This document shows positions 34,083-51,477 of a stretch of DNA of 64,000 bases, piece after piece (position 1 is the stretch's first letter; each line of letters begins with the position of its first letter). The DNA is from Phycisphaerales bacterium (GTDB taxonomy: Bacteria > Planctomycetota > Phycisphaerae > Phycisphaerales > SM1A02). The notes below the pieces were generated by a model. The model saw nothing but the letters and a program-made list of their open reading frames with translations, did no database searches and was not told the DNA's origin. The stretch is taken from positions 676,451-740,450 of the forward strand of contig JAKVBT010000005.1 in NCBI GenBank assembly GCA_022446905.1. The letters run 5' to 3'. A program made the position numbers and the translations under genes.

Positions 34083-35101
34083 AGGATGAATCGGATCATG
34101 AACAACAAACGTGCATTTACTCTCGTCGAACTGCTGGTGGTGATTAGCATCATCGCCATCCTGATCGCCACCCTTCTGCCGGCCCTGTCCAACGCGCAGC
34201 GTCGGGCACGTGAGGCTGCTGACATGAAGCGGCTGCAACAGGTGCATGCTGGCTGGACCACATGGGCCGCTGGCGAACAAGATGGTCGCTACCCCATTCC
34301 GGGCTTCATGGACCGCAAGCCAGTCGAAATGTTTGATGCCAACTCCGGCGGCGTAATCGCTCAGGAAGTCGCCGACCGCGGCGAACCCAACTGGGGCTAC
34401 AACCACCAGGCTGCCGTTCACTCCGCCAGCATCATGCAGGGCCTCTACAGCCCCAAGGACATCGTCGCTGACGGTGATCCCAGTGCTGCGGTCTACAACT
34501 TCGATCAATATCGCTACGACGACTACAACCCAAACCCCAACGTCACCGGTGGCGAAGACGATGTCCACTGGGATTCGACACTTCAAAGCGACCTCGATGA
34601 CTCTCAGATCTCCAATGTGTCCTTCTTCTCGATGCCCCTGATCGGCGAGCGATTCGACCAGAATTGGCGCAACAATGGCAATTCGGGATTCGCCATCATT
34701 GGATGGCGTGGACCCATCCGCAATGAAACTCCTGCGGATGTCGATGACTTCTACCCAGACTGCTTCCGGGCCTATGGGCCGCAGCGTCAATGGGTCGGGC
34801 CGGTCGTCTACAACGATAATGCGATCAAGACAGAAAAGACCTTCTACCCCGCGACCATCCCTTCCATCCAGAAAGAGCCGCTGATCAATGACAGTCTCTT
34901 CTGGTACGAGTGCGGTTCAGACGAAAATGGCGGCGTCTGCCTGCCGGACAACTATGACGTCCTGCTGTGCTGCTTCCGCTACGTCGAGGGTGGCGATGAT
35001 GGCACTGGACGACTGGACATTCTGGACAAGAATCCTCGCAAAGAGGACATCGGAGTCTCAGACTTCAGCGATGGAACAACATGGGATCCCATCAACTGAG
35101 T
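34083..35101 (+). repeat. Pseudopilin gene duplication, copy 1
   Basis: This 1019-bp stretch matches 36787-37805 except at three positions (34478 T/C, 34730 T/G, 34803 G/A in copy 1/copy 2). Identity begins 3 bp before the ATG and ends 2 bp after the stop; flanks are unrelated. Confidence 0.97.
34086..35099 (+). CDS. Type II secretion-like pseudopilin, copy 1
   Basis: 337 residues. A short basic leader MNRIMNNKRA precedes the prepilin-peptidase site A/FTLVE and the hydrophobic helix LLVVISIIAILIATLLPAL, with Glu5 of the mature form present. The soluble part (about 300 residues) has paired cysteines (FWYECGSD, GVCLP, LLCCFRY) and many Asp/Asn. After PilD-type cleavage it would assemble in a pseudopilus or surface fibre. 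It is an enlarged planctomycete pseudopilin but lacks the DUF1559 C-terminal pattern. The second copy differs by one residue (Val240 here, Ile there). Confidence 0.9.
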   Translation: MNRIMNNKRAFTLVELLVVISIIAILIATLLPALSNAQRRAREAADMKRLQQVHAGWTTWAAGEQDGRYPIPGFMDRKPVEMFDANSGGVIAQEVADRGEPNWGYNHQAAVHSASIMQGLYSPKDIVADGDPSAAVYNFDQYRYDDYNPNPNVTGGEDDVHWDSTLQSDLDDSQISNVSFFSMPLIGERFDQNWRNNGNSGFAIIGWRGPIRNETPADVDDFYPDCFRAYGPQRQWVGPVVYNDNAIKTEKTFYPATIPSIQKEPLINDSLFWYECGSDENGGVCLPDNYDVLLCCFRYVEGGDDGTGRLDILDKNPRKEDIGVSDFSDGTTWDPIN

Positions 35102-35119
35102 CCATAACAGACACACACC

Positions 35120-35145
35120 ACTGGCTGGGCGAAAGCCCAGCCAGT
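35120..35145 (+). terminator. Intrinsic terminator after pseudopilin copy 1
   Basis: ACTGGCTGGGC-GAAA-GCCCAGCCAGT is a perfect 11-bp stem with a stable GNRA tetraloop, followed by TGGCTTTTA. It lies 20 bp after the stop. Copy 2 has no counterpart. Confidence 0.75.
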
Positions 35146-35189
35146 TGGCTTTTAGCGACTGTGGGACGCCCCCCCGAGAGGAACGAAAT

Positions 35190-36533
35190 ATGAAAGCCCA
35201 TCACTTGCTTTCCGCCGGCCTTGTGCTGGCTTCGACCACCACCCTGTCCACCGCTGCCACTCGTTTGGTCCTTGGCGAAGAATTCACTGCGACTTGGTGT
35301 GGCTACTGCCCATCCGTGGCCGACGCCATGCTCCAAGTACATGAAGCTCGGCCAAATGAATTCATCGGCATGATGATCCATGGCGGCGACAATTACACAA
35401 CATCATGGGGCAATAGTCGCATTGGCTTTTACGGCGTTGGCGGCTACCCAACCGTCTGGCTCGATGGCTGGAATCTCAAATACGGCTCAAGCGGATCCGT
35501 CGCGGCCAACTACGCTGACATCAACAACAAAGTCAACCAGTGCCTTGCACGCCCCTGCGATGTCTCCATCACGATGTCTGGCGAAGAACTGAGTGGATCC
35601 CAGTACCAGGTCTCGGTCGATCTGGGAGTTGATGCAGGCGGCACGAGCAAGACCATTCGCGTCCAACTTGTCCAGTGCTACAACGCCGAGAACTGGCCCG
35701 AAGCAAACGAAGCCCAGTTCAATACGGTCCGACAGGCGGCCAGCTCCTTTGATGTCTATGTTGGTGCAGGAAGCTCCCACTCCTTTAATCACACCTTTAC
35801 CCTGTCTGGCGAGAGTCTTGCCAATGACAACGACGTGACCTATATATGCATCGCGCAAGAAGCAAGCAATTCCGGCCCTGCAGATATTTACAACACCGCG
35901 ATTCATGAACATGGCGCACTGCCACCAGCCAACGTCACAGTCGGCCAGGGCGGTGACTACAGCACCATCCAAGAGGCCATCAATAATGTCGGCACAGGCA
36001 GCACCATCACCGTAGCCCCTGGCACCTATGAAGGACCCATCGATTTTGATGGCCGTTCCGTCAATTTGGTATCCAGCGACGGCGCTGATGTCACCATCAT
36101 CGATGCCATGCAACAAGGCAGAGTGGTGACCATGATGAGTGGTGAAAATGGCACCATCGACGGCTTTACCATTACTGGCGGCTATATCCATGCCGGATCT
36201 GCGATGATGATCTTTGGAAATCCAACGATTCTCAATTGCATCATCCGTGACAACGTGGCCTATTTGGACTACTGCATCGCCTCTTATGGATATCCAGTGT
36301 TCCAGAACAACTTGTTCTGCAACAACTCGCCGAACAACATCGAAATCTCCTGGGTCGATGGAGGTGGCAACATCTTTGACGATGTGTGCCCTGGCGGCGA
36401 GTGCCCTGGGGATCTCAATGGTGACCAAACCGTCGGCGTCGATGACATCCTTGAAGCAGTTGCTGGATACGGCGATCAGTATGACGTTGACACCATTCTC
36501 GAAGTACTCAACAACTTCGGAAACAACTGCTGA
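35190..36533 (+). CDS. Secreted thioredoxin-like / beta-helix / dockerin fusion
   Basis: 447 residues. A signal peptide (to about residue 23) is followed by a thioredoxin-fold domain with active site TATWCGYCP (Cys37, Cys40) and YPTVWLDG as the cis-Pro loop. From about residue 250, GQGGDYSTIQEAINNV opens a pectin-lyase/DUF1565 right-handed beta-helix (TITVAPGTY, GFTITGGYI, NPTILNCII). Residues 405-447 are a Cys-bracketed half dockerin with one intact Ca loop. GAGAGG lies upstream. It sits between the two pseudopilin copies. Probably a surface disulfide oxidoreductase or carbohydrate binder. Confidence 0.85.
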   Translation: MKAHHLLSAGLVLASTTTLSTAATRLVLGEEFTATWCGYCPSVADAMLQVHEARPNEFIGMMIHGGDNYTTSWGNSRIGFYGVGGYPTVWLDGWNLKYGSSGSVAANYADINNKVNQCLARPCDVSITMSGEELSGSQYQVSVDLGVDAGGTSKTIRVQLVQCYNAENWPEANEAQFNTVRQAASSFDVYVGAGSSHSFNHTFTLSGESLANDNDVTYICIAQEASNSGPADIYNTAIHEHGALPPANVTVGQGGDYSTIQEAINNVGTGSTITVAPGTYEGPIDFDGRSVNLVSSDGADVTIIDAMQQGRVVTMMSGENGTIDGFTITGGYIHAGSAMMIFGNPTILNCIIRDNVAYLDYCIASYGYPVFQNNLFCNNSPNNIEISWVDGGGNIFDDVCPGGECPGDLNGDQTVGVDDILEAVAGYGDQYDVDTILEVLNNFGNNC

Positions 36534-36786: not shown

Positions 36787-37805
36787 AGGATGAATCGGAT
36801 CATGAACAACAAACGTGCATTTACTCTCGTCGAACTGCTGGTGGTGATTAGCATCATCGCCATCCTGATCGCCACCCTTCTGCCGGCCCTGTCCAACGCG
36901 CAGCGTCGGGCACGTGAGGCTGCTGACATGAAGCGGCTGCAACAGGTGCATGCTGGCTGGACCACATGGGCCGCTGGCGAACAAGATGGTCGCTACCCCA
37001 TTCCGGGCTTCATGGACCGCAAGCCAGTCGAAATGTTTGATGCCAACTCCGGCGGCGTAATCGCTCAGGAAGTCGCCGACCGCGGCGAACCCAACTGGGG
37101 CTACAACCACCAGGCTGCCGTTCACTCCGCCAGCATCATGCAGGGCCTCTACAGCCCCAAGGACATCGTCGCTGACGGTGACCCCAGTGCTGCGGTCTAC
37201 AACTTCGATCAATATCGCTACGACGACTACAACCCAAACCCCAACGTCACCGGTGGCGAAGACGATGTCCACTGGGATTCGACACTTCAAAGCGACCTCG
37301 ATGACTCTCAGATCTCCAATGTGTCCTTCTTCTCGATGCCCCTGATCGGCGAGCGATTCGACCAGAATTGGCGCAACAATGGCAATTCGGGATTCGCCAT
37401 CATTGGATGGCGTGGACCCATCCGCAATGAAACGCCTGCGGATGTCGATGACTTCTACCCAGACTGCTTCCGGGCCTATGGGCCGCAGCGTCAATGGGTC
37501 GGGCCGATCGTCTACAACGATAATGCGATCAAGACAGAAAAGACCTTCTACCCCGCGACCATCCCTTCCATCCAGAAAGAGCCGCTGATCAATGACAGTC
37601 TCTTCTGGTACGAGTGCGGTTCAGACGAAAATGGCGGCGTCTGCCTGCCGGACAACTATGACGTCCTGCTGTGCTGCTTCCGCTACGTCGAGGGTGGCGA
37701 TGATGGCACTGGACGACTGGACATTCTGGACAAGAATCCTCGCAAAGAGGACATCGGAGTCTCAGACTTCAGCGATGGAACAACATGGGATCCCATCAAC
37801 TGAGT
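36787..37805 (+). repeat. Pseudopilin gene duplication, copy 2
   Basis: Direct repeat of 34083-35101, 2704 bp apart, with three substitutions in 1019 bp. Upstream and downstream sequences differ from copy 1 completely. Confidence 0.97.
36790..37803 (+). CDS. Type II secretion-like pseudopilin, copy 2
   Basis: 337 residues, identical to copy 1 except Ile for Val in WVGPIVYND. The ATG at 36790 is chosen because it matches the copy 1 start and the leader/cleavage pattern KRA/FTLVE; an upstream in-frame ATG at 36682 would put 36 residues before the leader and is unlikely. Its 5' flank, unlike copy 1, contains CTTGGCACAAC about 70 bp upstream (discussed and rejected as sigma-54). It converges with the redoxin-like gene 44 bp downstream, with no clear hairpin between. 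Confidence 0.9.
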   Translation: MNRIMNNKRAFTLVELLVVISIIAILIATLLPALSNAQRRAREAADMKRLQQVHAGWTTWAAGEQDGRYPIPGFMDRKPVEMFDANSGGVIAQEVADRGEPNWGYNHQAAVHSASIMQGLYSPKDIVADGDPSAAVYNFDQYRYDDYNPNPNVTGGEDDVHWDSTLQSDLDDSQISNVSFFSMPLIGERFDQNWRNNGNSGFAIIGWRGPIRNETPADVDDFYPDCFRAYGPQRQWVGPIVYNDNAIKTEKTFYPATIPSIQKEPLINDSLFWYECGSDENGGVCLPDNYDVLLCCFRYVEGGDDGTGRLDILDKNPRKEDIGVSDFSDGTTWDPIN

Positions 37806-37846: not shown

Positions 37847-39136
37847 CTACTCGGCTGGCTTGTCAGGCTCTGCGCGATGCAAAGCACGAAGCACCCGCTT
37901 GGGCCATCCCTCATCCACGCCAATCTGCTGATCAATGATGACTCCATCTGGACCAATCAGTACCAGATATGGCACGGTGGTGATACCCCATGCTGTCAAG
38001 ACATCTTGCCCAGACTCCACCAGACTGGGAACAGTCAGCCCAGCTTGCTCCCAGAATTTCTTCGCCTGCAATCTCCGAGGCTCATCATCTGGAATCCGTT
38101 CCATGATGTTGACTGCATAACAGTCAACTGAGATGTCATTGGCTGGATCGAGCGACTGTCGATAAATCGACTCCAACTGATCTATGCCTTTCCGGCTCAC
38201 CGGCGCCGAAGATGTCCAGAAGCCCAGGAGCACATGTCTTCCTCGAGTCGTGGATAGATCAAACACCTTGCCATCTGTGTCGTACAACTTGGCAAGCGGA
38301 GCCTGATCACCAATCGAGCGACGATTGCGAGTCACTGGATCCAGATCTCTCCTGGTTGCCACCGGTGTTCGAATGCCTGGATCAAAGACAATCTCGCTTG
38401 GCAAGGCATCCACAAATTGAATCTCTGTGGTCATATTCATAACCAGTTCAAATGGCTCAAGATCCTCATTGACAACGACAGACATCTCAGCATGAGACCC
38501 CACAATCTGCTTGAGATCAGGCCGATAGTCGATCCACCCGGTGCCATACCCCCCAGCAACGAGTATCCGATTGATCGGCTGACCCTCCTGCGTCTGAAGC
38601 ATCTCCAGACCCGAAATCACAGGCTTTCCGAGGCTGCGCATCATCACCACTTCCAACCACTTCCCTGGATCGAGTCCTTCCCGAAGCATGGCCTCAAAGC
38701 CCGCCATGGCTGGATCACCAATCACCGCCTCAACCCCATCAACCATGCTATTGCCGATTGGAACTTCAATGTACCGGTCATAGATTTGATGAAACACGAG
38801 TCTCATGACCCCATTGCGAACATCGACAATCGAGTCTGGCGATTCAATTCGAACGAAACCATCTGGACCAAACATGGATTCGACGACGACTTCCTTCCTC
38901 GATTGCGCCGTGGTATTGACTACCGTCGTCTTTGCAATGACTGCTGGGGCTGACCGAAAGGCATCGGCCGCCTGCCGCAATAGAAGAACTGCAGCAGCCT
39001 GCGTTGCTGGGTCAGCCTCCGAAATCTCCGGAGCCGCCGGCATCGTGAATTGAGCAGGGCCAACATCTTGAGCATGCCCCATTGAAGCCGTGCTCGCGAC
39101 ATACAAGAGGATGATTGAGATAACTGGATAACGCAT
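37847..39136 (-). CDS. Periplasmic redoxin-like protein lacking catalytic cysteines
   Basis: 429 residues. A signal peptide ends SMGHAQ. The N-terminal domain (about 30-270) is LolA/DUF2092-like in strand pattern. The C-terminal TlpA-type thioredoxin domain has GDQAPLAKLYDTDGKV, LLGFWTSSAPVSRKG and TTVPYLVLIGPDG. At the WCxxC position the sequence is SAPVS: both Cys are replaced (Ala, Ser), although the cis-Pro is kept. It is therefore unlikely to exchange disulfides. A TTG start at 39175 overlapping the upstream stop is possible, but ATG 39136 gives the signal peptide. Confidence 0.8.
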   Translation of the reverse strand: MRYPVISIILLYVASTASMGHAQDVGPAQFTMPAAPEISEADPATQAAAVLLLRQAADAFRSAPAVIAKTTVVNTTAQSRKEVVVESMFGPDGFVRIESPDSIVDVRNGVMRLVFHQIYDRYIEVPIGNSMVDGVEAVIGDPAMAGFEAMLREGLDPGKWLEVVMMRSLGKPVISGLEMLQTQEGQPINRILVAGGYGTGWIDYRPDLKQIVGSHAEMSVVVNEDLEPFELVMNMTTEIQFVDALPSEIVFDPGIRTPVATRRDLDPVTRNRRSIGDQAPLAKLYDTDGKVFDLSTTRGRHVLLGFWTSSAPVSRKGIDQLESIYRQSLDPANDISVDCYAVNIMERIPDDEPRRLQAKKFWEQAGLTVPSLVESGQDVLTAWGITTVPYLVLIGPDGVIIDQQIGVDEGWPKRVLRALHRAEPDKPAE

Positions 39137-39171
39137 GGGACCACAGCATAGCCCGCTCACTGAAACTGCGC

Positions 39172-41034
39172 TCAACGAGCCCGCTCGATTCGATAGAGAC
39201 GGTCGACTGCATCAACCTCAACCACCTCGGAGACGCCATCTGGCCAATCGATCACGACTGAATCCACAACCTCTGAGTCTCCCAGACCAAAAGTGAGTGG
39301 CAATTCAACCTGCGAGAGATACGACCGCGTGGGCATGACCTGACGTCGCTGCGTCACACCACCTGACACCACCTCCACCCATGCGCCAATCGCTCTGGTA
39401 TTGGACGACTGGGGATCACGCAAATCAAGGCGAAGCCAATGGTGGCCAAGTTCCTGATCATTGCGAAGAAGTACTGGAGGAAGACCAGGCTGAGTCACAA
39501 TTAAATCGAGGTCCCCATCGGCATCAATATCGGCGTGAGCTGCGCCCCGACCGACAATCGGTTTTGCCAACGCACCAGCCGAATCGGAAGGCACAATTTT
39601 AAAACTCGCACCCTGGTCACTCCCCGCATTCCAGAACAACTGACCTGGCTGACGGTAATGCTGGCTCGCCTGCACTTCCTCGATATCTTCTTCCAGATGA
39701 CCATTGGTTTGAAATAAATCAAGACGGCCATCTAAGTCGTAGTCAAGCATGATCAAGCCAAACGAGAGCAGAGATCTCGTCGGACCCCCAATACCCTCAA
39801 CTACTGCCTCATCCGTAAACCATCCATCAGGAGACTCTGCCACATAGAAACTTGTCATTTCATTTGCGAAGTTACCAATGCCAATTCCAAGCGCAGTGTC
39901 ATTTCGATAGTGGGCAACATCAATGCCCATGGCACCAGTCGCCTGCCCGCGGGGATCGTACGCAAGGCCTGCCGTGACCCCCTCTTCAGTGAACACACCC
40001 GATCCATCATTACGATAGAGAAAGTTACGAGTTGTATCGTTGGCCACAATCAGATCCATATCGCCATCACGGTCGATATCGACTGGCGCCACAGCAAGAG
40101 ACTTGCCAACGGCAGTGCCAGTAGCCGAATTGAAAACTTTCATGCCTGACTGGGCAGACACATCAACAAAGGTCCCATCTCCCTGATTCTCAAACAACGT
40201 GGGATGCGTACCCTCGTACTGCTTTGGCGGACCATAGGCTCGATCGGTACCGTTAATTGTAAATCCAAGAGCCAAATCCTTTTCTCGAGACCACTGCACA
40301 TAGTGCGGCACAAAGAGATCAAGATCGCCATCGCTATCTACATCAATAAAAGCCGGACTAGTACTCCACTGTGGTGGCAATGCTGACAAACCCGCGACCT
40401 GGGTGACATCCTCGAGCCCGTTGCCGGTATTGCGATACAGCCGATCTTTATGCAAGCCTGCCAGATAGATGTCAATGCGACCATCACTGTCGTAGTCGCC
40501 AGCAGCGACCCCTGTGGCATACATATTTTGACCAATATTCCATGCGGGGCTGGCAGGCTCAAAGTGGCCACTGCCATCATTCATCCAGACGCTTGTTTCT
40601 GTATCGGCAGATTCATCCCCTTGATCATGAGGCCACCAGGCACCGCTGACCAGTAAAAGATCTTGATCGCCGTCATCATCAAAGTCCACAAATGCCACCC
40701 CTCCGCCCATCGTTTCTGGCAGCAACTTCTCACCGCGTGCACCCGAGACATGGGTAGTCTGAAGACCAACCTCATCGCCGATACTTGCAAACGCAACATC
40801 TGGAATAACAGCCAGATCTGCAACCAATGCCTCTGGCGCTGCAATCTGCTTCTCTATCACTGCTTCTGTAGGCTGTTCACGAAAAGTAGTTGCCACCCAG
40901 AAAGCTCCGCCAAGCACAGCAATGCCCAGAAAGACCACCATCGACCAACCAAACGCACGACCGATGATGGCGTCATTCTGTCGGTCAAATTCGTCGTTCG
41001 GGTCCGGTGTTTTTGACGGAGGATCAGTGGTCAT
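39172..41034 (-). CDS. Membrane-anchored CRTAC1/UnbV FG-GAP protein
   Basis: 620 residues. One N-terminal transmembrane helix (about 27-49) leaves a large periplasmic part. It holds about seven FG-GAP/VCBS repeats with Ca-binding loops (DFDDDGDQDLLL, DYDSDGRIDIYL, DVDSDGDLDLFV, DIDRDGDMDLIV, DADGDLDLIV). The ASPIC/UnbV domain closes the C-terminus (WVEVVSGGVTQRRQV, then LTFGLGDSEVVDSVVIDWPDG). This is a beta-propeller of the CRTAC1 type, binding role unknown. Its start overlaps the stop of the multihaem gene (ATGA at 41031-41034). Confidence 0.9.
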   Translation of the reverse strand: MTTDPPSKTPDPNDEFDRQNDAIIGRAFGWSMVVFLGIAVLGGAFWVATTFREQPTEAVIEKQIAAPEALVADLAVIPDVAFASIGDEVGLQTTHVSGARGEKLLPETMGGGVAFVDFDDDGDQDLLLVSGAWWPHDQGDESADTETSVWMNDGSGHFEPASPAWNIGQNMYATGVAAGDYDSDGRIDIYLAGLHKDRLYRNTGNGLEDVTQVAGLSALPPQWSTSPAFIDVDSDGDLDLFVPHYVQWSREKDLALGFTINGTDRAYGPPKQYEGTHPTLFENQGDGTFVDVSAQSGMKVFNSATGTAVGKSLAVAPVDIDRDGDMDLIVANDTTRNFLYRNDGSGVFTEEGVTAGLAYDPRGQATGAMGIDVAHYRNDTALGIGIGNFANEMTSFYVAESPDGWFTDEAVVEGIGGPTRSLLSFGLIMLDYDLDGRLDLFQTNGHLEEDIEEVQASQHYRQPGQLFWNAGSDQGASFKIVPSDSAGALAKPIVGRGAAHADIDADGDLDLIVTQPGLPPVLLRNDQELGHHWLRLDLRDPQSSNTRAIGAWVEVVSGGVTQRRQVMPTRSYLSQVELPLTFGLGDSEVVDSVVIDWPDGVSEVVEVDAVDRLYRIERAR

Positions 41035-43841
41035 GGTGTCTCCGCTCCAGGCTCAGATACACGCTGAAGATCGTAGATGACAACTGCTTCAGCCGCCCGG
41101 TTTGCTGCTGGATACCTGCGACGAGCTTCGGAGATTGCATAATCACGAGCATTGTCATCTGGCTTATACGTTGCATGCTGGACTTCATGATGATCTGCCC
41201 GCTCTGTATCCCCTAAATCTCGATACACCTGCATGAGCCCGAAGTGGGCCTCCACGTTTTCTGGATCGAGTTCAAGACTACGTTCAAACATCTCCGCCGA
41301 TTCCCCAAGGAATGCCTCTCGCTGATCTTGGCGTTGTGCACCACGGGCTTGACGCGCCCGCTGGTACAACGTGCTACCAAGTTCGTTAAGCACGCGCCAA
41401 TCCTCTGAGAAATCAAACCCTCGGCCTGCAGCCTGCGCAAAACCGCCATCGATGATCTGTCGATACTTCGCGATTGCTTCATCTAAACGACCATTTTGCC
41501 GGTCTACCTGAGCACCGAACCAGAGCAGATGCCATTGGCGCGCCGCGGGGTCCTCCATCGCGCCTGCACGTGCCAACGCCGCTGGGGCTTCCTCAGTCAC
41601 ACGGCCCTCTCTCAGATAAACACGCGCGAGATTGATCGGCCCATCCGGATGACCTAGCGATTCCACCTCGACAAATGCCTGCTCGGCACCACGCAGTTCT
41701 CCCGCGCCAGTCTTACGCAAGAGGCCAATGCCATAGTCATTCCAACGAACCCATTCTGGAATGTCCACAGGAAGCATCTCAACTTCTTGCTCTCCCCCCT
41801 TCACTGGAAGCACAACCTCATCGACGGCAAGCGTGGTCACTGGCAGATCATTCACCCAGCCTTCATCACCATGCACAAATCGCATTAACTCTGTATCGAA
41901 CTTGCGGTACTTCAACTCAGCTCGAATCGTGACGGGCTGATCACAGCGCTCAGGCAACTGAAATCGGTAATGCACCACGTCAGCTGCACCTGGGGGAATC
42001 TGGTTGTTGTAAAGCGAAGTAAAGATGTCTTGCGCATTTCGACGAGAAATTCGGCGCCCTTCACGATCAATGACAAATGAATTGACAAAGTGAGACCATG
42101 GGTCAACTTCCCCATCGGAATCCATACTGCCACTGCGGCCAATCACCTCGTCACCACAACGAACCGTCACATCCATCCATACCTGATTGGAATCCGCTGT
42201 TCCCTGTGTAAACAGATGGCCCATCTTGACCGTCCGAATGACAGCATCAAGCAGGTAGGTCTCTCCAGGCACCAGTTCTGGGGTCTGATCTGGGCCAATA
42301 GGGCCAAGCAACGGATCAGTGATCCGACCACCTTCACGCAGAGCAAAGAGATCCAAACGCATGACCCCCTCGAGAAACTCGCGATGCTTGGCAATCGCCT
42401 CATCACTGCGCGGCATATCAACCAAAGTTGGCATGGCAGTGTTCGCAGAGGGGAACATGTGATCGTGCACTGTTGGCACGCCACTGTCATCACGCACCAC
42501 AGCCCCAAAGTCGCTCGATGGCATCAGTGGCATATGGCAGTCATTGCAATTCACTTGAGCTATCGGGGGATAGTAGAAACTTGCCACCCCATGCCCTGAC
42601 ACTCCGCTGAGATGGAATGAATCTTGATGATTCTGCCCGCGTAACCACTTGTAATGATTGAGCTCTTCAGGGAGATGCACCTTGTGGCAGGTGCCACAGA
42701 AGATGTCTGACTGGTGCAGCGGCTTCAGGAATGATTTCTTGTGAAACTCTGGCTTGGCCTTAACGAGCTGACGATTGACCCAGCGAAGGACTGGATCCTC
42801 ACTAAAGGTAAAGGGGTAATGCGGGGGCTCATCAATCGTGTAATCAGCATTACCACGGGGCGTATTGACATGCGTAATCCCATGGCAAGCCGTACATGTG
42901 ATACCCGCATGCGCCGTTGGATCATGCACCATGTCGTAGTCAGGATCATTGAATGCCCCACTGAAGAATGGAACAGGGTCGTGACAGCCCGCACAGAATC
43001 TAGATGCAGCAACATCGCCGTCACGCTCCAGAGCCACTTCGCGTGTCTCACGCACCGATGCCAAATAGACCGGATTGTTGAAGGATGAAAAACGATGGAC
43101 ACTGTGCATCCATGAGTCATGAATATCAGCATGGCACTCAAGGCAGTACTCATCATTATCGAGCACATGCGATGGAATAAAGTCTCCACTGACAGTTCTT
43201 GCAAGCGATGGGAAGAAGTATTCATCCCCCGCTTCATTGCCCTCCACATTCCATTGGCGAGGGTCCTGAGACTGCAGCACCAACATGACCACCGCGAAGG
43301 TTGCTGCCACGCCCCCCCAGGCCAACCCAATACGCCACTTGATGCGCCGACCAGCGAGCCGGTGCAAAATAAAGAGCCAGATGACCAGTAGCGGCACGAT
43401 CACATGAAGCCACCAGGCGGTCTCTCGAATCGCCGGATCTCGCACATCGATCAACCCCTCAATCCGAAGCAGAACGATGCCTGTGCCCAAAACAATCAGC
43501 GCAGCGACAAACAAGGCATAGCCTGCCTTGACCGCACGACGATTGGGGTGGTCATGTACCCGCCGCATGTGCATCAGGCCAAAGATGATGATGGGCAGAA
43601 TGATGATCAGCCCCAGCACCAGATGCGCAAGGAACATGGTCAGATAGAACCAATTTTCGTAGGAGGCTCCAGTGGCCAATCCCATGACCCGGATGCCAAC
43701 GAGGTAGACCGAATTGACGATCAGCAGCGCAAAGAGACCAAAGCTCGACCAGAGCAGAAAGCCCAGTCCACCCACCGGGGCTCGCCATCGACGACGACGA
43801 TCCTCCATATCAACCTGATTTGGACGTGCGGCATCACTCAT
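41031..43841 (-). CDS. Membrane multihaem cytochrome c with TPR tail
   Basis: 936 residues. About five N-terminal TM helices (26-190) carry His residues (LAHLVLG, LMHMRRVH, WWLHVIVPL, ILHRLAG) that could hold b haem. A periplasmic part follows with five CxxCH motifs: Cys233, Cys283, Cys316, Cys382 and Cys432. The spacing and CHADIHDSWMHSVH resemble the cytochrome c554/NapC-like group. A beta-rich domain is next, then TPRs (about 770-900). It could pass electrons from quinol to a surface acceptor. TAGGGT lies 8 nt before the ATG. Domain calls are firm; the role is inference. Confidence 0.88.
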   Translation of the reverse strand: MSDAARPNQVDMEDRRRRWRAPVGGLGFLLWSSFGLFALLIVNSVYLVGIRVMGLATGASYENWFYLTMFLAHLVLGLIIILPIIIFGLMHMRRVHDHPNRRAVKAGYALFVAALIVLGTGIVLLRIEGLIDVRDPAIRETAWWLHVIVPLLVIWLFILHRLAGRRIKWRIGLAWGGVAATFAVVMLVLQSQDPRQWNVEGNEAGDEYFFPSLARTVSGDFIPSHVLDNDEYCLECHADIHDSWMHSVHRFSSFNNPVYLASVRETREVALERDGDVAASRFCAGCHDPVPFFSGAFNDPDYDMVHDPTAHAGITCTACHGITHVNTPRGNADYTIDEPPHYPFTFSEDPVLRWVNRQLVKAKPEFHKKSFLKPLHQSDIFCGTCHKVHLPEELNHYKWLRGQNHQDSFHLSGVSGHGVASFYYPPIAQVNCNDCHMPLMPSSDFGAVVRDDSGVPTVHDHMFPSANTAMPTLVDMPRSDEAIAKHREFLEGVMRLDLFALREGGRITDPLLGPIGPDQTPELVPGETYLLDAVIRTVKMGHLFTQGTADSNQVWMDVTVRCGDEVIGRSGSMDSDGEVDPWSHFVNSFVIDREGRRISRRNAQDIFTSLYNNQIPPGAADVVHYRFQLPERCDQPVTIRAELKYRKFDTELMRFVHGDEGWVNDLPVTTLAVDEVVLPVKGGEQEVEMLPVDIPEWVRWNDYGIGLLRKTGAGELRGAEQAFVEVESLGHPDGPINLARVYLREGRVTEEAPAALARAGAMEDPAARQWHLLWFGAQVDRQNGRLDEAIAKYRQIIDGGFAQAAGRGFDFSEDWRVLNELGSTLYQRARQARGAQRQDQREAFLGESAEMFERSLELDPENVEAHFGLMQVYRDLGDTERADHHEVQHATYKPDDNARDYAISEARRRYPAANRAAEAVVIYDLQRVSEPGAETP

Positions 43842-43903
43842 CTCAACCCACCCTATCGGGAAAGAAGCCCCACTCGGATGTCTTTTTTAAGCCTGAGACC
43901 CAC

Positions 43904-46900
43904 TCAGCGGCCGCTGCGATACCGCGTCCGGCCTGTAGATCCCTCCCCAGGGACAGGCTCCACTGAGCCACTATCACGGGTCATGAGATCCATGTCCTTA
44001 CACCAGCCATGAAATACCAGCACATGCCGCCTGACCCAGCCTGCTGGCTGCTCCCGCACAGGATCAAAACGGCAGCGAACCGCATCCCCGGTTCCAAAGA
44101 CCGCCACCGTTCCATCTGGCGTACCCACATCAGCGAGTACATCGCCCAGTTGGTCATACCACCCTCGCTGTGTCCGGGTATCCCACAAAGGCGAACGCCT
44201 CGCCCAATCAAAACCGGGCTTTCGGAGCGCTCCATCAATCCGCCTAGGGAAGCCAGCTGCTTCTAGATTCGCCTGCAATGGGGTGCTCAAATGCACGACA
44301 GCCTCAGCACAGGGCTCGACCCACACCACGCTCGCCGCATCTACGTACAACTCTAAATCCGTAGAAAGTCGAATGGCCCGACAACCATCTGGAAGTCCGT
44401 GCAATGGGAATACCGACCGCCGCGGCATACCGGCGGGATAGCCGATTTCAGTATGCAAACGAACCCAGTCACCATCACTGCCCTGCGCATCGATGGAGAT
44501 TGGACGATAGGTCCGGCCAGCCTGCCACGCGGCGAACATCGTCTGGGAATATGGATACTCAACCCATCCATCAATCAACAACATTGGCTCGCCCGAGCCA
44601 CTCCGCATTTCATCGAAGCGAAGTTCCATATTGAGTGGTTCCAACAACCGCCCCAAGAAACGAACATCCCGGTGGCCAGGATCCAGGGCAACACCATCGG
44701 CAACAGCAGCCTGCTCAGTGACGGCCACCCCATGAAGGAGCACCTCATCTGGCACCTGCTGATGGCGATAAAACAGAAGTTCGGAACTAGGCATTGGCTC
44801 CCCAGTCCCCATGCGCTCATCAGGTACGACCTGCCAGCCTGGCGGACAGTCAATCGTCTCCAACAACACCGCATCGAGATAGCAGGTCTCTTGCATCGGC
44901 TCGGCAATGATGAACTCATAGTGTCCGTCACGCGGCTTGATCACATCAGCGGACAACAACACACGCTCAAGGGGGCGCGGCGGGGCGTAGCGATCTGGCC
45001 CTAGAAGAAATCCCAATCCCGCAACACCGAGACAGTCCGTCATGAATTGCATCGAGCTGCCATCCCACGCGAAGATGACTGGGCACGATGACAATTGGCG
45101 TTGTGTCTCGGCAATCTCATGAACAGGGCCTGGCGCCAGTCGCGATTCCGTCTGGAAAACCCCATCTGTCCAATCGATGGCCACAAAGTCCACATCAGCT
45201 GCGCCCCCAAGGCCGATGGCGTAGGGCTGCAAACTTTGCCCTGGACCTGCATTTGAACGAACACCACCTGTAATGGTCCAGCGATCCTCTACACGCGCCG
45301 CAATATGAGTTCCAATACCGCTCATGTTGCTGCGCATCGACTGCCCAGTGTCTGTGCGACCTTGAGGCAAGACATTGACAAATGAAAATCGTCCCGTCCC
45401 AGGCGGATAGCACTTCATGCCCTCAGATTCCGCAACCAACAAGCCCGGCCCTTGACTACTGCCCACATCACAGAGCATCCACCGCTGCGCCGCAATGGGC
45501 AACATCTCACGTTGGCCAGAGCCTCGAAGTACCTGAAGCAGAGGCATCGCACCTTGTTGATCAGGCAAACCCCATGCAGACTCCGCTACGACATCGAGTT
45601 GACCATCACCATCGAGATCCGCAACCGCCAGTTGTCTCGGCAATGGGTCATGACGACGTACTGCTGCTGAATGAGGAGGCGTTGCCATTGGCGCAGCTAA
45701 ATCTTCACTGGACCACACGGCCTCCCCACGTGACCAGATCTTGACCGAAGCATCTGGCTGACTAGTGATCAAATCGATCTGCCCATCTGCATTGAGATCC
45801 GCCGCGACAGCGGCTGACACTTCAGCTTGCAGCAACCCATCCCAGCCCTGCTCAGGCTTTGACCATGCCCAAAGTCGATCATTGGCCCACAGCATGTGCG
45901 GCGGTGATTGCCCGATTAAGAGCACATCCGTATCCAAGTCTCCATCGAAGTCGGAAACAACAACCTGCCGACCTTGCACCATCGACTCTGGAAACCCTGA
46001 GGTCTCATCGCGAATCGTCCGCCAACTGCCATCGCCATTGTTTCCCAGCAATTGACAGGGCTGACCATCATTGACCATCAGCACATCGAGGTCACCATCG
46101 TGATCTGCATCAAAGAGAGCACCGTCAACCGTATTGGCCTTGGAAGTCTCAAATCGCTGGTCTAACTCATAGCCGCCGTCACCACGACCCAGCCAAAGCT
46201 GATTGATTCCGTCACCACATAGAACGACATCGAGTTGCCCATCACTATCCACATCCCCCCACAGTGCAGCTGATGCCTTCAGATCAGAAAACGGCGATGC
46301 CATCGGCCCCCGAATCACCATCCCCTTCGATTCGTCCCCTTCTTGCTCAAGGCGATACATCGACGAGCCATCTCCAGCAGCAAGCACATGCAGGGTGCCA
46401 TCAATCCAGCCTGCAGAAAGGGCGTTCACTGTTACAGCCTCAGCCGATTGCAGCACGCTTGCAGATGCCTCATCAAACAAGGGGCCTGGAGGCTGTGGCG
46501 GTGGTGGCCCAAGCTGCGCATTTAAAACCGCAAGTTCAGCCTTTGGCCCCATGCGGGTGTATTTCAGTTCTGCCAGATGCGCTCTTGGATTGTGTTCCAT
46601 CCGCTGGAAAGTATCCAGCCAACTCGCTGCTAACCCCGTGTCCCCAGCTCTTCGTGCAGCTTGCGCTCCGGCATACAGGGCGCTGCGGAGATATGGATCC
46701 AGATCAATCGCGCGACGAAGTGAGGTCAGCGCGCCGGGCATGTCTCCCAACTGCATACGAGTTTGGCCCAGGTAGTAGGCGGCAAAGGCATCCTCAGGAT
46801 CTTGGCTAGCTACGTCCGCAAACAGCTGCTGCGCCCCTTCGATATCCCCTGCATTGAGCCGTAGCAAACCAGCGGTATACGCTGCACGCATATTGTCAGG

Positions 46901-47212
46901 CTGCCGCGACAAGACTCCCTCAAGCAACTGCAATGCCACCGTCTCATCGCCTGGCATCTGACGGTTCAAGGTCGCAATCGCAAGATCAACCTGAAATTGA
47001 TCTCTTGATGGATCTTCATTGGCGAGTTCCTGCAGGATGTCAACTGCGCCCTGATAGTCAAAGGCGCCCATCACCGCGACCGCATCATTGTGTTTCGCCA
47101 GTTGTGCAGCCGTGAACTCTTGTGCTGGAACAGGGCCATCCGCTGGCGGATCCGACTTGCAGCCAAGGAGAAGAACGAAAAGTACATAACAGCCCAGAGT
47201 GGCTCTAATCAC
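43904..47212 (-). CDS. TPR-CRTAC1/UnbV giant lipoprotein
   Basis: 1102 residues. The lipobox is LLLGC at residue 18. TPR units occupy about 35-235 (ANEDPSRDQFQVDLAIA, QDPEDAFAAYYLGQ). FG-GAP repeats with Asp-rich loops follow (DVDSDGQLDVVL, DADHDGDLDVLM, DFDGDLDTDVLL, DLDGDGQLDVVA), then a UnbV-like region (YAIGLGGAADVDFVAIDWTDG) and an extra C-terminal domain of about 400 residues ending in VRRHVLVFHGWCKDMD. That last pattern recurs in large CRTAC1/TPR proteins. It is coupled to the upstream nitrilase gene by ATGA (47209-47212). Confidence 0.87.
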   Translation of the reverse strand: MIRATLGCYVLFVLLLGCKSDPPADGPVPAQEFTAAQLAKHNDAVAVMGAFDYQGAVDILQELANEDPSRDQFQVDLAIATLNRQMPGDETVALQLLEGVLSRQPDNMRAAYTAGLLRLNAGDIEGAQQLFADVASQDPEDAFAAYYLGQTRMQLGDMPGALTSLRRAIDLDPYLRSALYAGAQAARRAGDTGLAASWLDTFQRMEHNPRAHLAELKYTRMGPKAELAVLNAQLGPPPPQPPGPLFDEASASVLQSAEAVTVNALSAGWIDGTLHVLAAGDGSSMYRLEQEGDESKGMVIRGPMASPFSDLKASAALWGDVDSDGQLDVVLCGDGINQLWLGRGDGGYELDQRFETSKANTVDGALFDADHDGDLDVLMVNDGQPCQLLGNNGDGSWRTIRDETSGFPESMVQGRQVVVSDFDGDLDTDVLLIGQSPPHMLWANDRLWAWSKPEQGWDGLLQAEVSAAVAADLNADGQIDLITSQPDASVKIWSRGEAVWSSEDLAAPMATPPHSAAVRRHDPLPRQLAVADLDGDGQLDVVAESAWGLPDQQGAMPLLQVLRGSGQREMLPIAAQRWMLCDVGSSQGPGLLVAESEGMKCYPPGTGRFSFVNVLPQGRTDTGQSMRSNMSGIGTHIAARVEDRWTITGGVRSNAGPGQSLQPYAIGLGGAADVDFVAIDWTDGVFQTESRLAPGPVHEIAETQRQLSSCPVIFAWDGSSMQFMTDCLGVAGLGFLLGPDRYAPPRPLERVLLSADVIKPRDGHYEFIIAEPMQETCYLDAVLLETIDCPPGWQVVPDERMGTGEPMPSSELLFYRHQQVPDEVLLHGVAVTEQAAVADGVALDPGHRDVRFLGRLLEPLNMELRFDEMRSGSGEPMLLIDGWVEYPYSQTMFAAWQAGRTYRPISIDAQGSDGDWVRLHTEIGYPAGMPRRSVFPLHGLPDGCRAIRLSTDLELYVDAASVVWVEPCAEAVVHLSTPLQANLEAAGFPRRIDGALRKPGFDWARRSPLWDTRTQRGWYDQLGDVLADVGTPDGTVAVFGTGDAVRCRFDPVREQPAGWVRRHVLVFHGWCKDMDLMTRDSGSVEPVPGEGSTGRTRYRSGR

Positions 47213-48189
47213 GATTGCCCCTTCGCCTTCTTGATTCGATCACGCAACGATGTCGTGGAAATGGGATGTTGGGCTGGTCCCATTCGTCCAGAGTTCTGAC
47301 TATAGGAGTAGGCTTCAGGCCGATGATGAGCAAGCGTGTCATGTCCGAGACGACGTAAGCGATCCTCACGTAGCGCCTCAATGTCAATGGAGGCCACAAC
47401 CACACGCTCTCCAGGACCTGCTTCAGCCTGCGCCAAAATGCGGCCGTCATAGTCCACCACCATGCTGGCGCCCGGCCAAGAGAATGGAGGGAACTGCTTC
47501 ATGGTTGCTGCTTGATTTGATGCCACGACATAACACCTGTTCTCTGCGGCCCGTGCTCGATTAAAGAGGGTCCACCAGTCCATCGGCGGCGTTGCCCCCC
47601 ACGGGTCCATATAGGCCGAGACCCGACACAACACTTCAGCACCATTAAATGCCAATTGTCTGGTCACTTCAGGAAACAGCCAGTCGTAGCAGATGGCACA
47701 GCCAATGCGTCCAATCTCGGTATCAGCAACTGGGAAGTGGTCCCCAGTCGGATCGAGATCATGCGGCGAGGCGTGCACTTCGTGAGGAATCCAAGGATTG
47801 ACTTTGCGATAGATCGACTCAACACCCTTTGGACCAACCAACACAGAAGTGTTGAATACAACATCCGGGCATTGCGGATCCCGCTCAAGGAAGGTCCCCG
47901 TCTGAATCCAGCATCCATGAGCCTGACAGAGTTGAACATATTGATCGATGTAGTCGTTTGGTATCTCGACGGCCAAATCCGCCAATAGCCTGCCCACATC
48001 TTCATGAATCGGAACTACATGAGCAAACTCAGGAAAGACCAGAAGCCGCACATCACCAAATGGTTGGTATCCGGCAATGGTCTGCTCAACCATGTGGCAC
48101 ATTCGGTCGACACGGCTGCCGATTTGATCTCTGTGCGTCGGAGGTTCAAAGGCCGTCTGGATCGCAGCGGCGAGATAACGCAGTGCCAT
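47209..48189 (-). CDS. Carbon-nitrogen hydrolase (nitrilase superfamily)
   Basis: 326 residues. The catalytic triad is visible as Glu54 in LLVFPEF, Lys in YRKVNPW and Cys in GCAICYDW. This is the amidase branch that includes N-carbamoylputrescine amidase and beta-ureidopropionase; the exact substrate is open. The start is ATG 48189, with TATGAT exactly 6 nt upstream; longer starts would overlap the divergent TPR gene. It leads a leaderless-looking unit nitrilase - TPR/CRTAC1 lipoprotein. No signal peptide, so it is cytosolic. Confidence 0.88.
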   Translation of the reverse strand: MALRYLAAAIQTAFEPPTHRDQIGSRVDRMCHMVEQTIAGYQPFGDVRLLVFPEFAHVVPIHEDVGRLLADLAVEIPNDYIDQYVQLCQAHGCWIQTGTFLERDPQCPDVVFNTSVLVGPKGVESIYRKVNPWIPHEVHASPHDLDPTGDHFPVADTEIGRIGCAICYDWLFPEVTRQLAFNGAEVLCRVSAYMDPWGATPPMDWWTLFNRARAAENRCYVVASNQAATMKQFPPFSWPGASMVVDYDGRILAQAEAGPGERVVVASIDIEALREDRLRRLGHDTLAHHRPEAYSYSQNSGRMGPAQHPISTTSLRDRIKKAKGQS

Positions 48190-48195
48190 AGGTGA

Positions 48196-48201
48196 ATCAT
48201 A
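48196..48201 (-). promoter_or_regulatory. Putative -10 (TATGAT) for leaderless nitrilase gene
   Basis: TATGAT ends 6 nt before ATG 48189, within the 64-bp divergent intergenic region. Confidence 0.45.
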
Positions 48202-48240
48202 CGCATTGATGCAACATCTGCGGCACTTCGTAAGCGGAGA

Positions 48241-48246
48241 TACAAT
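48241..48246 (+). promoter_or_regulatory. Putative -10 (TACAAT) for leaderless TPR lipoprotein gene
   Basis: TACAAT (5/6) ends 7 nt before ATG 48254; it sits back to back with the nitrilase -10, about 40 bp apart. Confidence 0.45.
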
Positions 48247-48253
48247 CAGAGCG

Positions 48254-49711
48254 ATGAAGTCTCTCCGCTGGCTATTGGTCCTGTGTTGGTCCATGAGTGC
48301 GTGCGACTCAGCACCTCCGGACGTTGGACCGCCCCCATCACCTGGGGAACAAATGCTCGGTGGCGAAGTCATGGAAGCCGTCACGGCCCAATTGGAGGCC
48401 GTGGCTACCAACCCCTCTGACCCAGCCCATCGCCGCACCCTTGGCATGCTCTACCTTGCCAATGGCATGCCTGCCGCTGCTGCCATGGCCTTTGAGCAGG
48501 CAATCGAGCTTGGAGATGCCACCGCGGCGACCTATTACCTCCTTGGAATTGCCATGGAAATGAGTGGGAATCTTGACCAAGCCCTCATGGCCATGGCCCA
48601 AGGACGCCAGTTGGATCCCTCCGCCCGACAACTGTGCTGGCGGCCTGGCTTCTGGCTGCTGGAGGATGGCCAAGCCGATCGAGCGCTGGCTCTATTTGAA
48701 CAGGCTGGCGTGCTTGAGCGGCAGACCGGACGGCCCCAAGCGGATGGCGCCGCTTGGCGAATTGGCCAAGCTCGCTCGCTGATGGATCTTGATCGTCCAG
48801 AGCAAGCAGTACCGGTGCTTGAGGAACTGGACAATTTGTTAGACCACTTTTACGTCGACTATCTGCTCGCACAGGCGCGTCGCCGCGCTGGGCTGTCAAA
48901 CGCTACCGCGACGCAGGCAAGCACCGGGGCCATTGAAGCGCCAAGTTATCCTGATCCCTGGTGGGACGAGGTCTCTGACGCCCAACGTGGCCTTGATGGA
49001 CGCATTGCTCGCATCGATGAGTTGCTCGATGCCAGTCGATTCTCCGAAGCTTCATCGGTCATCAATCAAGCTCGCGCCAGATGGCCGCGAGACGTCAACC
49101 TGCTCAATCGACAAAGTGAACTCCACCGCCGCCAAGGCGACACCAAAGCCTGGGTCCGAGCACTCAAACAAGCTGTCCGAATCGAGCCAACGCACGCCCC
49201 ATCACACTACAACCTATCGATTGCGCATCAACAATCCGGTGATTTGGATGCAGCCCTGAACCACGCCTACCAAGCTGTCGCTGCCAATGAATCCATGGCC
49301 AGCGGCTGGCTCCAGATTGGACGTCTCGTGGTACGCATGCGTCGCCTCGATCAAGGAAACAGCCCGGGCCAAGAGCAGGCCATTGCCGAGGCCCTGGCAC
49401 CGCTGGACCGCGCCTTTGCACTTGGGGTGGAGTCTCCCAATGAACATCTCATGTACGGCCATCTTCTGCTCCGCGGGAATCGACTGGATGATGCCCAGCG
49501 TGTACTGGCGCGGCTGACTGAGCGCCCCGATGGAGGCCCGCCAAAGTCCTGGGCAGTGCTCAGCGAGGTCTATGCAGCCCAAGACGACCATGAGTCTGCA
49601 CTGAAGACGGCGCTCATGGGACTCAATCGCTTTCCACAACAACCAGAACTCATCCGAATCATCAACCGATACCGACTTGGTCGCCCCACAAGCGAAACTC
49701 CCGATTCATGA
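48254..49711 (+). CDS. TPR-repeat lipoprotein
   Basis: 485 residues. Signal MKSLRWLLVLCWS and a lipobox-like MSAC place a mature Cys at about 17. At least eight TPR-type helix pairs follow (for example RRTLGMLYLANGMPAAAAM, YYLLGIAMEMSGNLDQALM, HYNLSIAHQQSGDLDAALN). It is a likely scaffold at the periplasmic face. Its stop overlaps the next CRTAC1 gene (ATGA at 49708-49711), so both are made together. It mirrors the opposite-strand TPR/CRTAC1 gene, but as two proteins. Confidence 0.86.
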   Translation: MKSLRWLLVLCWSMSACDSAPPDVGPPPSPGEQMLGGEVMEAVTAQLEAVATNPSDPAHRRTLGMLYLANGMPAAAAMAFEQAIELGDATAATYYLLGIAMEMSGNLDQALMAMAQGRQLDPSARQLCWRPGFWLLEDGQADRALALFEQAGVLERQTGRPQADGAAWRIGQARSLMDLDRPEQAVPVLEELDNLLDHFYVDYLLAQARRRAGLSNATATQASTGAIEAPSYPDPWWDEVSDAQRGLDGRIARIDELLDASRFSEASSVINQARARWPRDVNLLNRQSELHRRQGDTKAWVRALKQAVRIEPTHAPSHYNLSIAHQQSGDLDAALNHAYQAVAANESMASGWLQIGRLVVRMRRLDQGNSPGQEQAIAEALAPLDRAFALGVESPNEHLMYGHLLLRGNRLDDAQRVLARLTERPDGGPPKSWAVLSEVYAAQDDHESALKTALMGLNRFPQQPELIRIINRYRLGRPTSETPDS

Positions 49712-51477
49712 AACGCACGCTTCTGATAGCACTGATGCTCAGCGTGGGATGCCAGGGCGAGCCAGCACCCCCGAACGCCGAACCTGCTGCCATCAGTGCT
49801 CCATCATCAGCCCCAGCAGCGTGGGTCAAAACACACGAACCATTTGATTTCAAGTGGATCTCTGGCGCTTTAGGCGAGTTTGCAATGCCTGAAATCATCG
49901 GTGGCGGAGTCGCTCTGATTGACTACGACGGTGATCGGGATCTCGATGTGTATTTCATCCAAGGCGGCGATCTGCTCGCTGCCCGAAATGCAGCCGCATC
50001 CAACCCACATCAAAACAGACTCTTTCGAAATGATGGGCAGTTCCGTTTTGTCGATGTGACTGAGGAAACAGGAACTGGAGATCGGCGGTACGGGATGGGC
50101 GTTGCTGTGGGCGATATCGACAACGACGGTGATCCAGACCTCTATATCACCAATGTGGGCCGCAACACCATGCTCCGAAATGACGCCGGCAACTTTGTCG
50201 ACGTCACAGAAGAGACCGGCACCGGCGACCCGGGCTGGGGCGCCAGCGCCGTCTTCTTTGATGCAGATCTCGACGGCGACCTCGATCTCTTTGCCACCAA
50301 CTACCTCGATTGGACCCCTGAAACAGAACTGACCTGCTTCAACCCACTTGGCGGGGAGGACTATTGTTCCCCACGAAACTACCTCTCACCAGCCATTGAT
50401 GTGTTCTACCGCAACAAAGGCGATGGCACGTTTGAGAATGCCACCGTCGATACAGGCTTGAATGAATCAGCTGGTACTGGACTGGGTGTGATCTCTGCCG
50501 ACTGGACCGGAGATGGCTACCCAGACCTCTTTGTTGCCAACGACGGCATGCCGGACTTCTTCTGGGCCTCCAATGGCGATGGTCGCTGGAGCGAACACGG
50601 CATGGACCGTGGTTGCGCATTGGACGACGAAGGAATCGCCAAAGCTGGCATGGGTGTAGACACAGATGATATTGACGATGACGGCGATCTTGATCTCATC
50701 GTGTGCAACCTCACAGGCGAATCCGATTCGATCTTCCGCAATGATGGAGACTACTTCATTGACATGACCGCTCGTACCGGTGTCCGCAAGTCCACGCGCC
50801 ATGCCACCCGCTTCGGGTTGGGCTGGGTCGATCTCAACAATGACGGATGGCTAGATCTTTTTGAAGCAAATGGACGTGTCATGCGATCCGCCGATGCGAA
50901 GACACATGACCCTTACGCCCAACACAATCATCTGCTGCAAGGAGATCAGCGTGGGCGTTTCACGATGGTGCCCCACGCGCTGGACAGTACTGATGCCCAG
51001 CCAAGAACCAGTCGAGCAGCAGCTTTTGGTGATCTCAATAACGACGGGCGGATCGATGTGGTCATTTGCAATCGAGATGCCCCTGCCATCCTTTTAGAAA
51101 ACATCACCAATCCTGAACATCACTATGTTCGAATCGATGTCATCAATGAACATGGCCGTCCAGATGTCGGCAGCCTGGTTGAATTGCGTCTCCCTGATCG
51201 CACGATCACCAGACCCGTACAACGAGCGGGGTCCTATATGGCCTCAAATGAGCCGACCGTTCATATCGGCATTGGCCCACATGAGCGTTATGAGGCATTG
51301 AGCGTGATCCGCCCGGATGGCACTCGTCAAACCTGGCCCGATGCAGCCCATATCCTCAACGGACAGTTCCGGATCGAGCCCCCCATATCTACACCCTCCT
51401 CTGCTGCCCACAATGCCGATGCAGTGGCCCCAAAGGCCCCATCAACAGAACCGGACGTTGGCAGAGAAGAAAAATAA
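49708..51477 (+). CDS. CRTAC1/UnbV FG-GAP lipoprotein
   Basis: 589 residues. The lipobox is MLSVGC (Cys15), then a Pro/Ala linker. The propeller starts at EIIGGGVALIDYDGDRDLDVYFIQGGD and has about seven repeats with Ca loops (DIDNDGDPDLYI, DADLDGDLDLFA, DIDDDGDLDLIV, DLNNDGWLDLFE, DLNNDGRIDVVI). The UnbV domain follows (GSLVELRLPDRTITRPVQRAGSYMAS). A low-complexity tail closes it. It is a surface-exposed putative adhesion or enzyme-partner protein, co-translated with the TPR lipoprotein. Confidence 0.9.
   Translation: MKRTLLIALMLSVGCQGEPAPPNAEPAAISAPSSAPAAWVKTHEPFDFKWISGALGEFAMPEIIGGGVALIDYDGDRDLDVYFIQGGDLLAARNAAASNPHQNRLFRNDGQFRFVDVTEETGTGDRRYGMGVAVGDIDNDGDPDLYITNVGRNTMLRNDAGNFVDVTEETGTGDPGWGASAVFFDADLDGDLDLFATNYLDWTPETELTCFNPLGGEDYCSPRNYLSPAIDVFYRNKGDGTFENATVDTGLNESAGTGLGVISADWTGDGYPDLFVANDGMPDFFWASNGDGRWSEHGMDRGCALDDEGIAKAGMGVDTDDIDDDGDLDLIVCNLTGESDSIFRNDGDYFIDMTARTGVRKSTRHATRFGLGWVDLNNDGWLDLFEANGRVMRSADAKTHDPYAQHNHLLQGDQRGRFTMVPHALDSTDAQPRTSRAAAFGDLNNDGRIDVVICNRDAPAILLENITNPEHHYVRIDVINEHGRPDVGSLVELRLPDRTITRPVQRAGSYMASNEPTVHIGIGPHERYEALSVIRPDGTRQTWPDAAHILNGQFRIEPPISTPSSAAHNADAVAPKAPSTEPDVGREEK

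Follow-up and report, generated by a model that had tools for sequence, protein, structure and literature searches.

A membrane-bound pentahaem cytochrome encoded side by side with a CRTAC1-type propeller protein in Phycisphaerales and other bacteria

Gene content and layout of the cluster

The DNA under study, here called the window, is a stretch of 64,000 nucleotides from a Phycisphaerales genome (G000:C45:676451-740450 in our genome set) whose closest relatives among named genomes are MAGs of marine Phycisphaerales. It contains a cluster of seven genes, with NIT, TPRFG, CYT, UNBV1 and RDX following each other on the minus strand and TPRL and UNBV3 on the plus strand. Pfam domains comprise a nitrilase domain in NIT, TPR and FG-GAP in TPRFG, Cytochrome_C554 and TPR in CYT, FG-GAP and UnbV in UNBV1, Redoxin in RDX, TPR in TPRL, and FG-GAP and UnbV in UNBV3; all genes listed in a first-pass annotation of this DNA were recovered in sequence and domain searches.

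At the head of the minus-strand genes, NIT (47209..48189) encodes a nitrilase-superfamily amidase that is likely cytoplasmic. It is followed by TPRFG (43904..47212), the gene for a 1102-aa lipoprotein composed of TPR repeats, an FG-GAP propeller, an UnbV-like part and around 400 residues of beta structure, and then by CYT (41031..43841), which encodes a 936-aa cytochrome with five transmembrane (TM) helices (about residues 27-191), five CxxCH motifs, a beta domain extending to about residue 680 and a TPR tail to residue 931. UNBV1 (39172..41034) encodes a 620-aa FG-GAP/UnbV (CRTAC1-type) propeller protein with an N-terminal TM anchor and looks like an obligate partner gene of CYT, while RDX (37847..39136 if starting at the ATG at 39136, with a TTG at 39175 as the other possible start) encodes an exported redoxin-like protein without active cysteines. 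On the plus strand, TPRL (48254..49711), divergent from NIT, and UNBV3 (49708..51477) encode a TPR lipoprotein and an FG-GAP/UnbV lipoprotein, respectively.

Most of these genes had been described as joined by ATGA overlaps, which is true of CYT/UNBV1 and of TPRL/UNBV3, whereas NIT and TPRFG overlap by GTGA, TPRFG and CYT are 62 bp apart, and an overlap of RDX with UNBV1 requires the TTG start, with the ATG at 39136 carrying a clear signal peptide. The start of NIT is most likely at 48189, which leaves a divergent gap of 64 bp to TPRL at 48254; a promoter and terminator scan of this gap found nothing. Since the whole source genome has just four Pfam UnbV matches, two of them inside the cluster, and dozens of genomes show this gene order, chance clustering can be ruled out.

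CYT and UNBV1 form the conserved core

Of the order's genomes, 151 were searched and 43 contain CYT, 40 of which are among the 46 genomes of the host's own family (37 with a full-length and three with only a distant CYT). As a wider set we used the best 80 of at least 548 CYT relatives in named genomes, and these 80 come from Planctomycetota, Acidobacteriota, Verrucomicrobiota and Pseudomonadota bins. Neighbours were counted by alignment, and only loci with room for them were considered. UNBV1 is located immediately downstream of CYT and in the same orientation at 32 of 36 own-family loci and follows it at 67 of 73 named-genome loci (among the best 80 of at least 548), which amounts to 99 of 109 loci for both sets together, with 4 bp as the commonest overlap. 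The pair also occurs in cultured Pirellulaceae (Rhodopirellula, Stieleria, Roseiconus and Roseimaritima), and a distant class of shorter CYT proteins (26-32% identity, 767-793 aa) likewise has a UNBV1 relative adjoining. TPRFG is located upstream of CYT at 25 of 34 own-family but only 22 of 74 named-genome loci, and NIT at 23 of 31 and 10 of 53, respectively (named-genome loci again from the best 80 of at least 548). The order NIT-TPRFG-CYT-UNBV1 is common in the host's own family, and recurrent neighbours outside Phycisphaerales are lineage-specific (e.g., a transpeptidase, an NHL propeller or DUF1501). Because UNBV1 is near-constant while TPRFG and NIT become rarer outside the host's family, the conserved core consists of two genes, CYT and UNBV1, to which the rest has been added.

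The first-pass annotation had proposed one envelope complex and had staked this on the genes being neighbours in other Phycisphaerae. They are neighbours there, and the CYT-UNBV1 pair is conserved far beyond, so that the conserved unit is narrower than first thought in comprising two genes yet wider in spanning phyla. We rejected one complex comprising all seven gene products as too wide, given that the TPRL/UNBV3 pair lies opposite the cassette only in near relatives and that RDX is neither part of the conserved set nor equipped with the active cysteines. The active CxxC of the latter has been lost (SAPVS in place of CxxC, within FWTSSAPVSRK), and RDX was not found beside the CYT-UNBV1 pair elsewhere save for one loose case, a homologue of 47% identity near the cluster at locus L072 that is not adjacent to UNBV1. 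We therefore rejected RDX as a working thioredoxin partner, and it probably does not belong to the conserved module.

Across 96 loci, the pairwise identities of CYT correlate with those of UNBV1 at r = 0.91, compared to r = 0.55 for CYT-TPRFG and r = 0.52 for CYT-NIT in smaller sets, though the correlation includes shared ancestry, for which the comparison with TPRFG and NIT controls only partly. Co-divergence this tight is what would be expected of subunits and argues against a role of the UnbV and TPR proteins as assembly or maturation helpers of the cytochrome instead of electron-transfer partners. The gene order would suit a cytochrome with its helper, and the TPR parts weakly resemble the TPR domain of CcmH/CycH, but genes for general cytochrome maturation are not recurrent neighbours of the pair, and we consider such a helper function quite unlikely.

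In the CYT tree, Verrucomicrobiota group together and Acidobacteriota and Pseudomonadota account for two changes each, while members from the host's own family are split between the group with the other phyla and positions far away from it. The CYT of the window is 58-59% identical to Acidobacteriota copies versus 41-55% to many copies from its own family. One reading of these data is that the CYT-UNBV1 pair has been transferred between phyla as a whole, and another is that old paralogues are being compared; the labels of MAGs may also be wrong.

Architecture of the CYT cytochrome

CYT had initially been described as a five-CxxCH membrane cytochrome with its own TPR tail, and our analysis confirmed the five motifs and the tail together with five N-terminal TM helices. 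The AlphaFold2 model (mean pLDDT 87, pTM 0.84) predicts these helices at residues 27-57, 64-95, 101-125, 136-162 and 169-191; the structure models of CYT contain no haem. Four histidines of this region are invariant among 96 CYT sequences from several phyla, His73 and His91 on predicted helix 2 as well as His146 and His160 on predicted helix 4. Two b haems in a membrane bundle would be expected to have their ligands placed in this way, and the invariance of all four residues makes a di-haem b quinol site in CYT plausible as judged from the histidine pattern. The TM region of the window's CYT gave no match to a Pfam cytochrome b family, and one distant CYT relative weakly matches the membrane family DUF4405 (E 0.0034).

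The five CxxCH motifs (Cys233, 283, 316, 382 and 432) are invariant in the same 96 sequences, as are the further histidines His249, 367, 461 and 542, and His405 is conserved in 97% of them. These five histidines are candidate ligands that could cap all five c haems and leave no open site, which speaks against CYT being a terminal reductase of nitrite, hydroxylamine or a related small molecule with UNBV1 as its structural subunit. Propellers do serve as structural subunit in hydrazine synthase, and CYT shows weak similarity to c554 and nitrite-reductase-associated cytochromes, but we regard this role as rather improbable. Genes of the CRTAC1 type have also been reported next to homologues of hydrazine synthase in Planctomycetota (PMC12758564), which provides a second instance of CRTAC1-type propellers encoded beside multihaem redox genes; different from those clusters, however, no hydrazine-synthase alpha subunit was recognised at the CYT-UNBV1 cluster.

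Residues 223-678 of CYT align to the pentahaem cytochrome c552 of Thermochromatium tepidum (PDB 5ze8; Z 15.7, 341 residues, rmsd 3.6), and the CYT family profile matches MccSep (1.2e-7) and c552 (3.2e-7), while Foldseek matches of the whole CYT model were dominated by TPR proteins. With five CxxCH motifs and the fold of the haem/beta domain both present, the haem part of CYT matches the pentahaem cytochrome c552/ExtKL family; the pentahaem cytochromes (PHC) of cable bacteria have been grouped with ExtKL and show structural homology to c552 (PMC11976967). CYT shares the five motifs and the combination of haem and beta fold with c552, Geobacter ExtKL, PHC and MccSep (PDB 9wt8) but, unlike all of these, adds an N-terminal TM bundle with four invariant histidines and a C-terminal TPR tail, and its gene is followed by one for an UnbV protein.

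The inner-membrane quinol oxidases known in extracellular electron transfer at the time of a previous study were CymA, CbcL and ImcH (PMC6295460). CbcL, as defined there, begins with its c haems followed by six HydC/FdnI-like TM helices with three conserved histidines. CYT is similar to CbcL, MtoC and MtrH in that a single chain joins a proposed di-haem b membrane part to several c haems, but its membrane part comes first and has five helices and four invariant histidines, and no match to those families was found. In contrast, the sequence of an N-terminal membrane part and then c haems is shared with CymA (NapC/NirT) and ImcH, and a role like theirs is proposed for CYT, but the five TM helices and five CxxCH motifs of CYT differ from the short single N-terminal TM segment and four haems of CymA as well as from the three TM helices and about seven haem motifs, including CX3CH, of ImcH (PMC6295460). 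CYT thus fits neither CbcL nor CymA nor ImcH in how its parts are ordered, in its number of TM helices or in its pattern of histidines.

Propeller proteins of the cluster

The first reading had counted three FG-GAP/UnbV proteins. Two of them, UNBV1 and UNBV3, have FG-GAP repeats and pass the Pfam cut-off for UnbV_ASPIC, whereas TPRFG gave no UnbV_ASPIC match over this cut-off and is UnbV-like by profile and fold, as seen from the comparison of its UnbV-like part with UNBV1 (hhalign probability 99.9, E 4e-34) and from its fold match to murine CRTAC1 (9etn; Foldseek E 2.7e-14). UNBV1 itself matches murine CRTAC1 by sequence (E 1.2e-13). The earlier observation that TPR is paired with UnbV in a fused protein as well as in two separate genes is correct, the fusion having a divergent UnbV part. 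The last 400 residues of TPRFG (about 700-1102; 43907-45115) are conserved and nearly all beta, without any Pfam match. Like murine CRTAC1, the cluster proteins have an FG-GAP propeller and an UnbV domain, but they are bacterial, membrane-anchored and encoded together with a cytochrome, and TPRFG has additional TPR repeats in front and 400 residues behind.

Among 96 UNBV1 sequences, the aspartates of the DxDxDG loops are invariant and a TM-like segment is found near the start of 87, while neither an invariant cysteine nor a haem motif was found in the family. Because of this combination of features we infer that UNBV1 serves for docking rather than for redox chemistry. In the literature searched, there is no established role for bacterial UnbV/CRTAC1 proteins and nothing on their pairing with a cytochrome.

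The NIT amidase

NIT matches the Pfam family CN_hydrolase (E 9.5e-39), its triad Glu54-Lys129-Cys167 and Glu137 are invariant in 18 of 18 aligned members, and the nearest solved structures are formamidases. It is encoded in 31 of the 46 genomes of the host's own family, all 31 of which also have CYT, and at the threshold used it is absent from the order's genomes outside this family (151 genomes searched). With intact catalytic residues, formamidases as relatives and such a distribution, NIT could be viewed as part of an amide or nitrile utilisation unit in which it frees ammonia from an amide and the redox parts handle the product. However, NIT has no signal peptide and would therefore be on the opposite side of the membrane from the redox parts, and most CYT-UNBV1 pairs elsewhere lack NIT, so that we see very little chance for this explanation. 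The amide substrate suggested in the first-pass annotation is unsupported on the same grounds, with NIT beside the pair at just 10 of 53 loci outside the family (best 80 of at least 548). The position of NIT at the operon head shows linkage, not shared chemistry.

A possible route for quinol electrons

The reading that we lean towards, with moderate confidence, is that CYT and UNBV1 together make up one inner-membrane unit, in which quinol electrons reach a periplasmic partner by way of two b haems and five c haems. The two b haems, with His73 and His91 of helix 2 and His146 and His160 of helix 4 as ligands, would oxidise quinol and hand the electrons on to the five c haems, which CYT would carry in its pentahaem domain on the periplasmic side, at the outer face of the inner membrane. 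UNBV1, as a membrane-tethered propeller of the calcium type, may bind CYT, perhaps at the TPR tail, and would hold or select the next periplasmic partner, and in Phycisphaerales the unit would be enlarged by the propeller lipoprotein TPRFG and the cytoplasmic amidase NIT. Of the original proposal that quinol electrons reach surface propeller proteins, a di-haem b quinol site is plausible from the four invariant TM histidines and the CYT-UNBV1 pair is conserved, but a single complex of all genes has to be given up.

In Phycisphaerales, a candidate for the next partner is DHOR (PF06537, two CxxCH motifs, dockerin-like end), which is encoded close to the module at 18 of 29 own-family loci with room. 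The usual DHOR block adjoins UNBV1, with UNBV-TPR and DHOR-FG845 on opposite strands. By family, we take DHOR to be a putative di-haem peroxidase and therefore a candidate electron acceptor, perhaps the one for CYT electrons. Because DHOR and another propeller adjoin in many relatives, a quinol-driven periplasmic peroxidase would be the likeliest use of the unit in Phycisphaerales; other phyla mostly lack this arrangement, with DHOR beside the pair at just 3 of 46 named-genome loci with room (best 80 of at least 548). In the source genome, the DHOR block is located on a separate contig (C2:8630-15203; L152; G000:C2), where a TPR/UnbV pair lies divergent to the genes for DHOR and an FG-GAP protein, whose products both end in dockerin-like repeats.

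A DHOR-type peroxidase would be an electron acceptor, which is at odds with the reverse flow from a periplasmic or extracellular donor over the c haems and b haems of the CYT-UNBV1 unit into the quinone pool, and no donor-oxidising enzyme is conserved beside the pair. We consider this reverse direction unlikely, although CbcL/MtoC-type proteins have been argued to run both ways (PMC6295460) and the sequence is silent on direction.

More broadly, it is possible that quinol-oxidising CYT represents a widespread further class of membrane quinol oxidoreductases (four-histidine TM bundle, pentahaem c domain and TPR) that relies on a CRTAC1-type propeller of its own, and we put this forward as a tentative proposal. 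If true, it would give bacterial UnbV proteins a first defined molecular role and, provided that the quinol reading holds, add a respiratory branch to the current list of CymA, CbcL and ImcH. The conserved pairing is in any case a concrete lead on the role of bacterial CRTAC1-type propellers, and its near one-to-one occurrence over four phyla, together with its presence in cultured Pirellulaceae, makes this role testable at the bench.

Further observations in the window

Two regions of the window (32336-33733 and 35145-36533) encode exported proteins with dockerin-like terminal repeats (LNGDG..VDDIL) as in the DHOR and FG-GAP proteins of contig C2. Separately, a prepilin-like gene (FTLVELLVVISIIAILIATLLPAL) is present in two copies at 34086-35099 and 36790-37803 that differ at 3 of 1014 bases; beyond the start and stop codons, identity falls almost to chance level over a few bases, i.e., the duplication is almost exactly gene-length.
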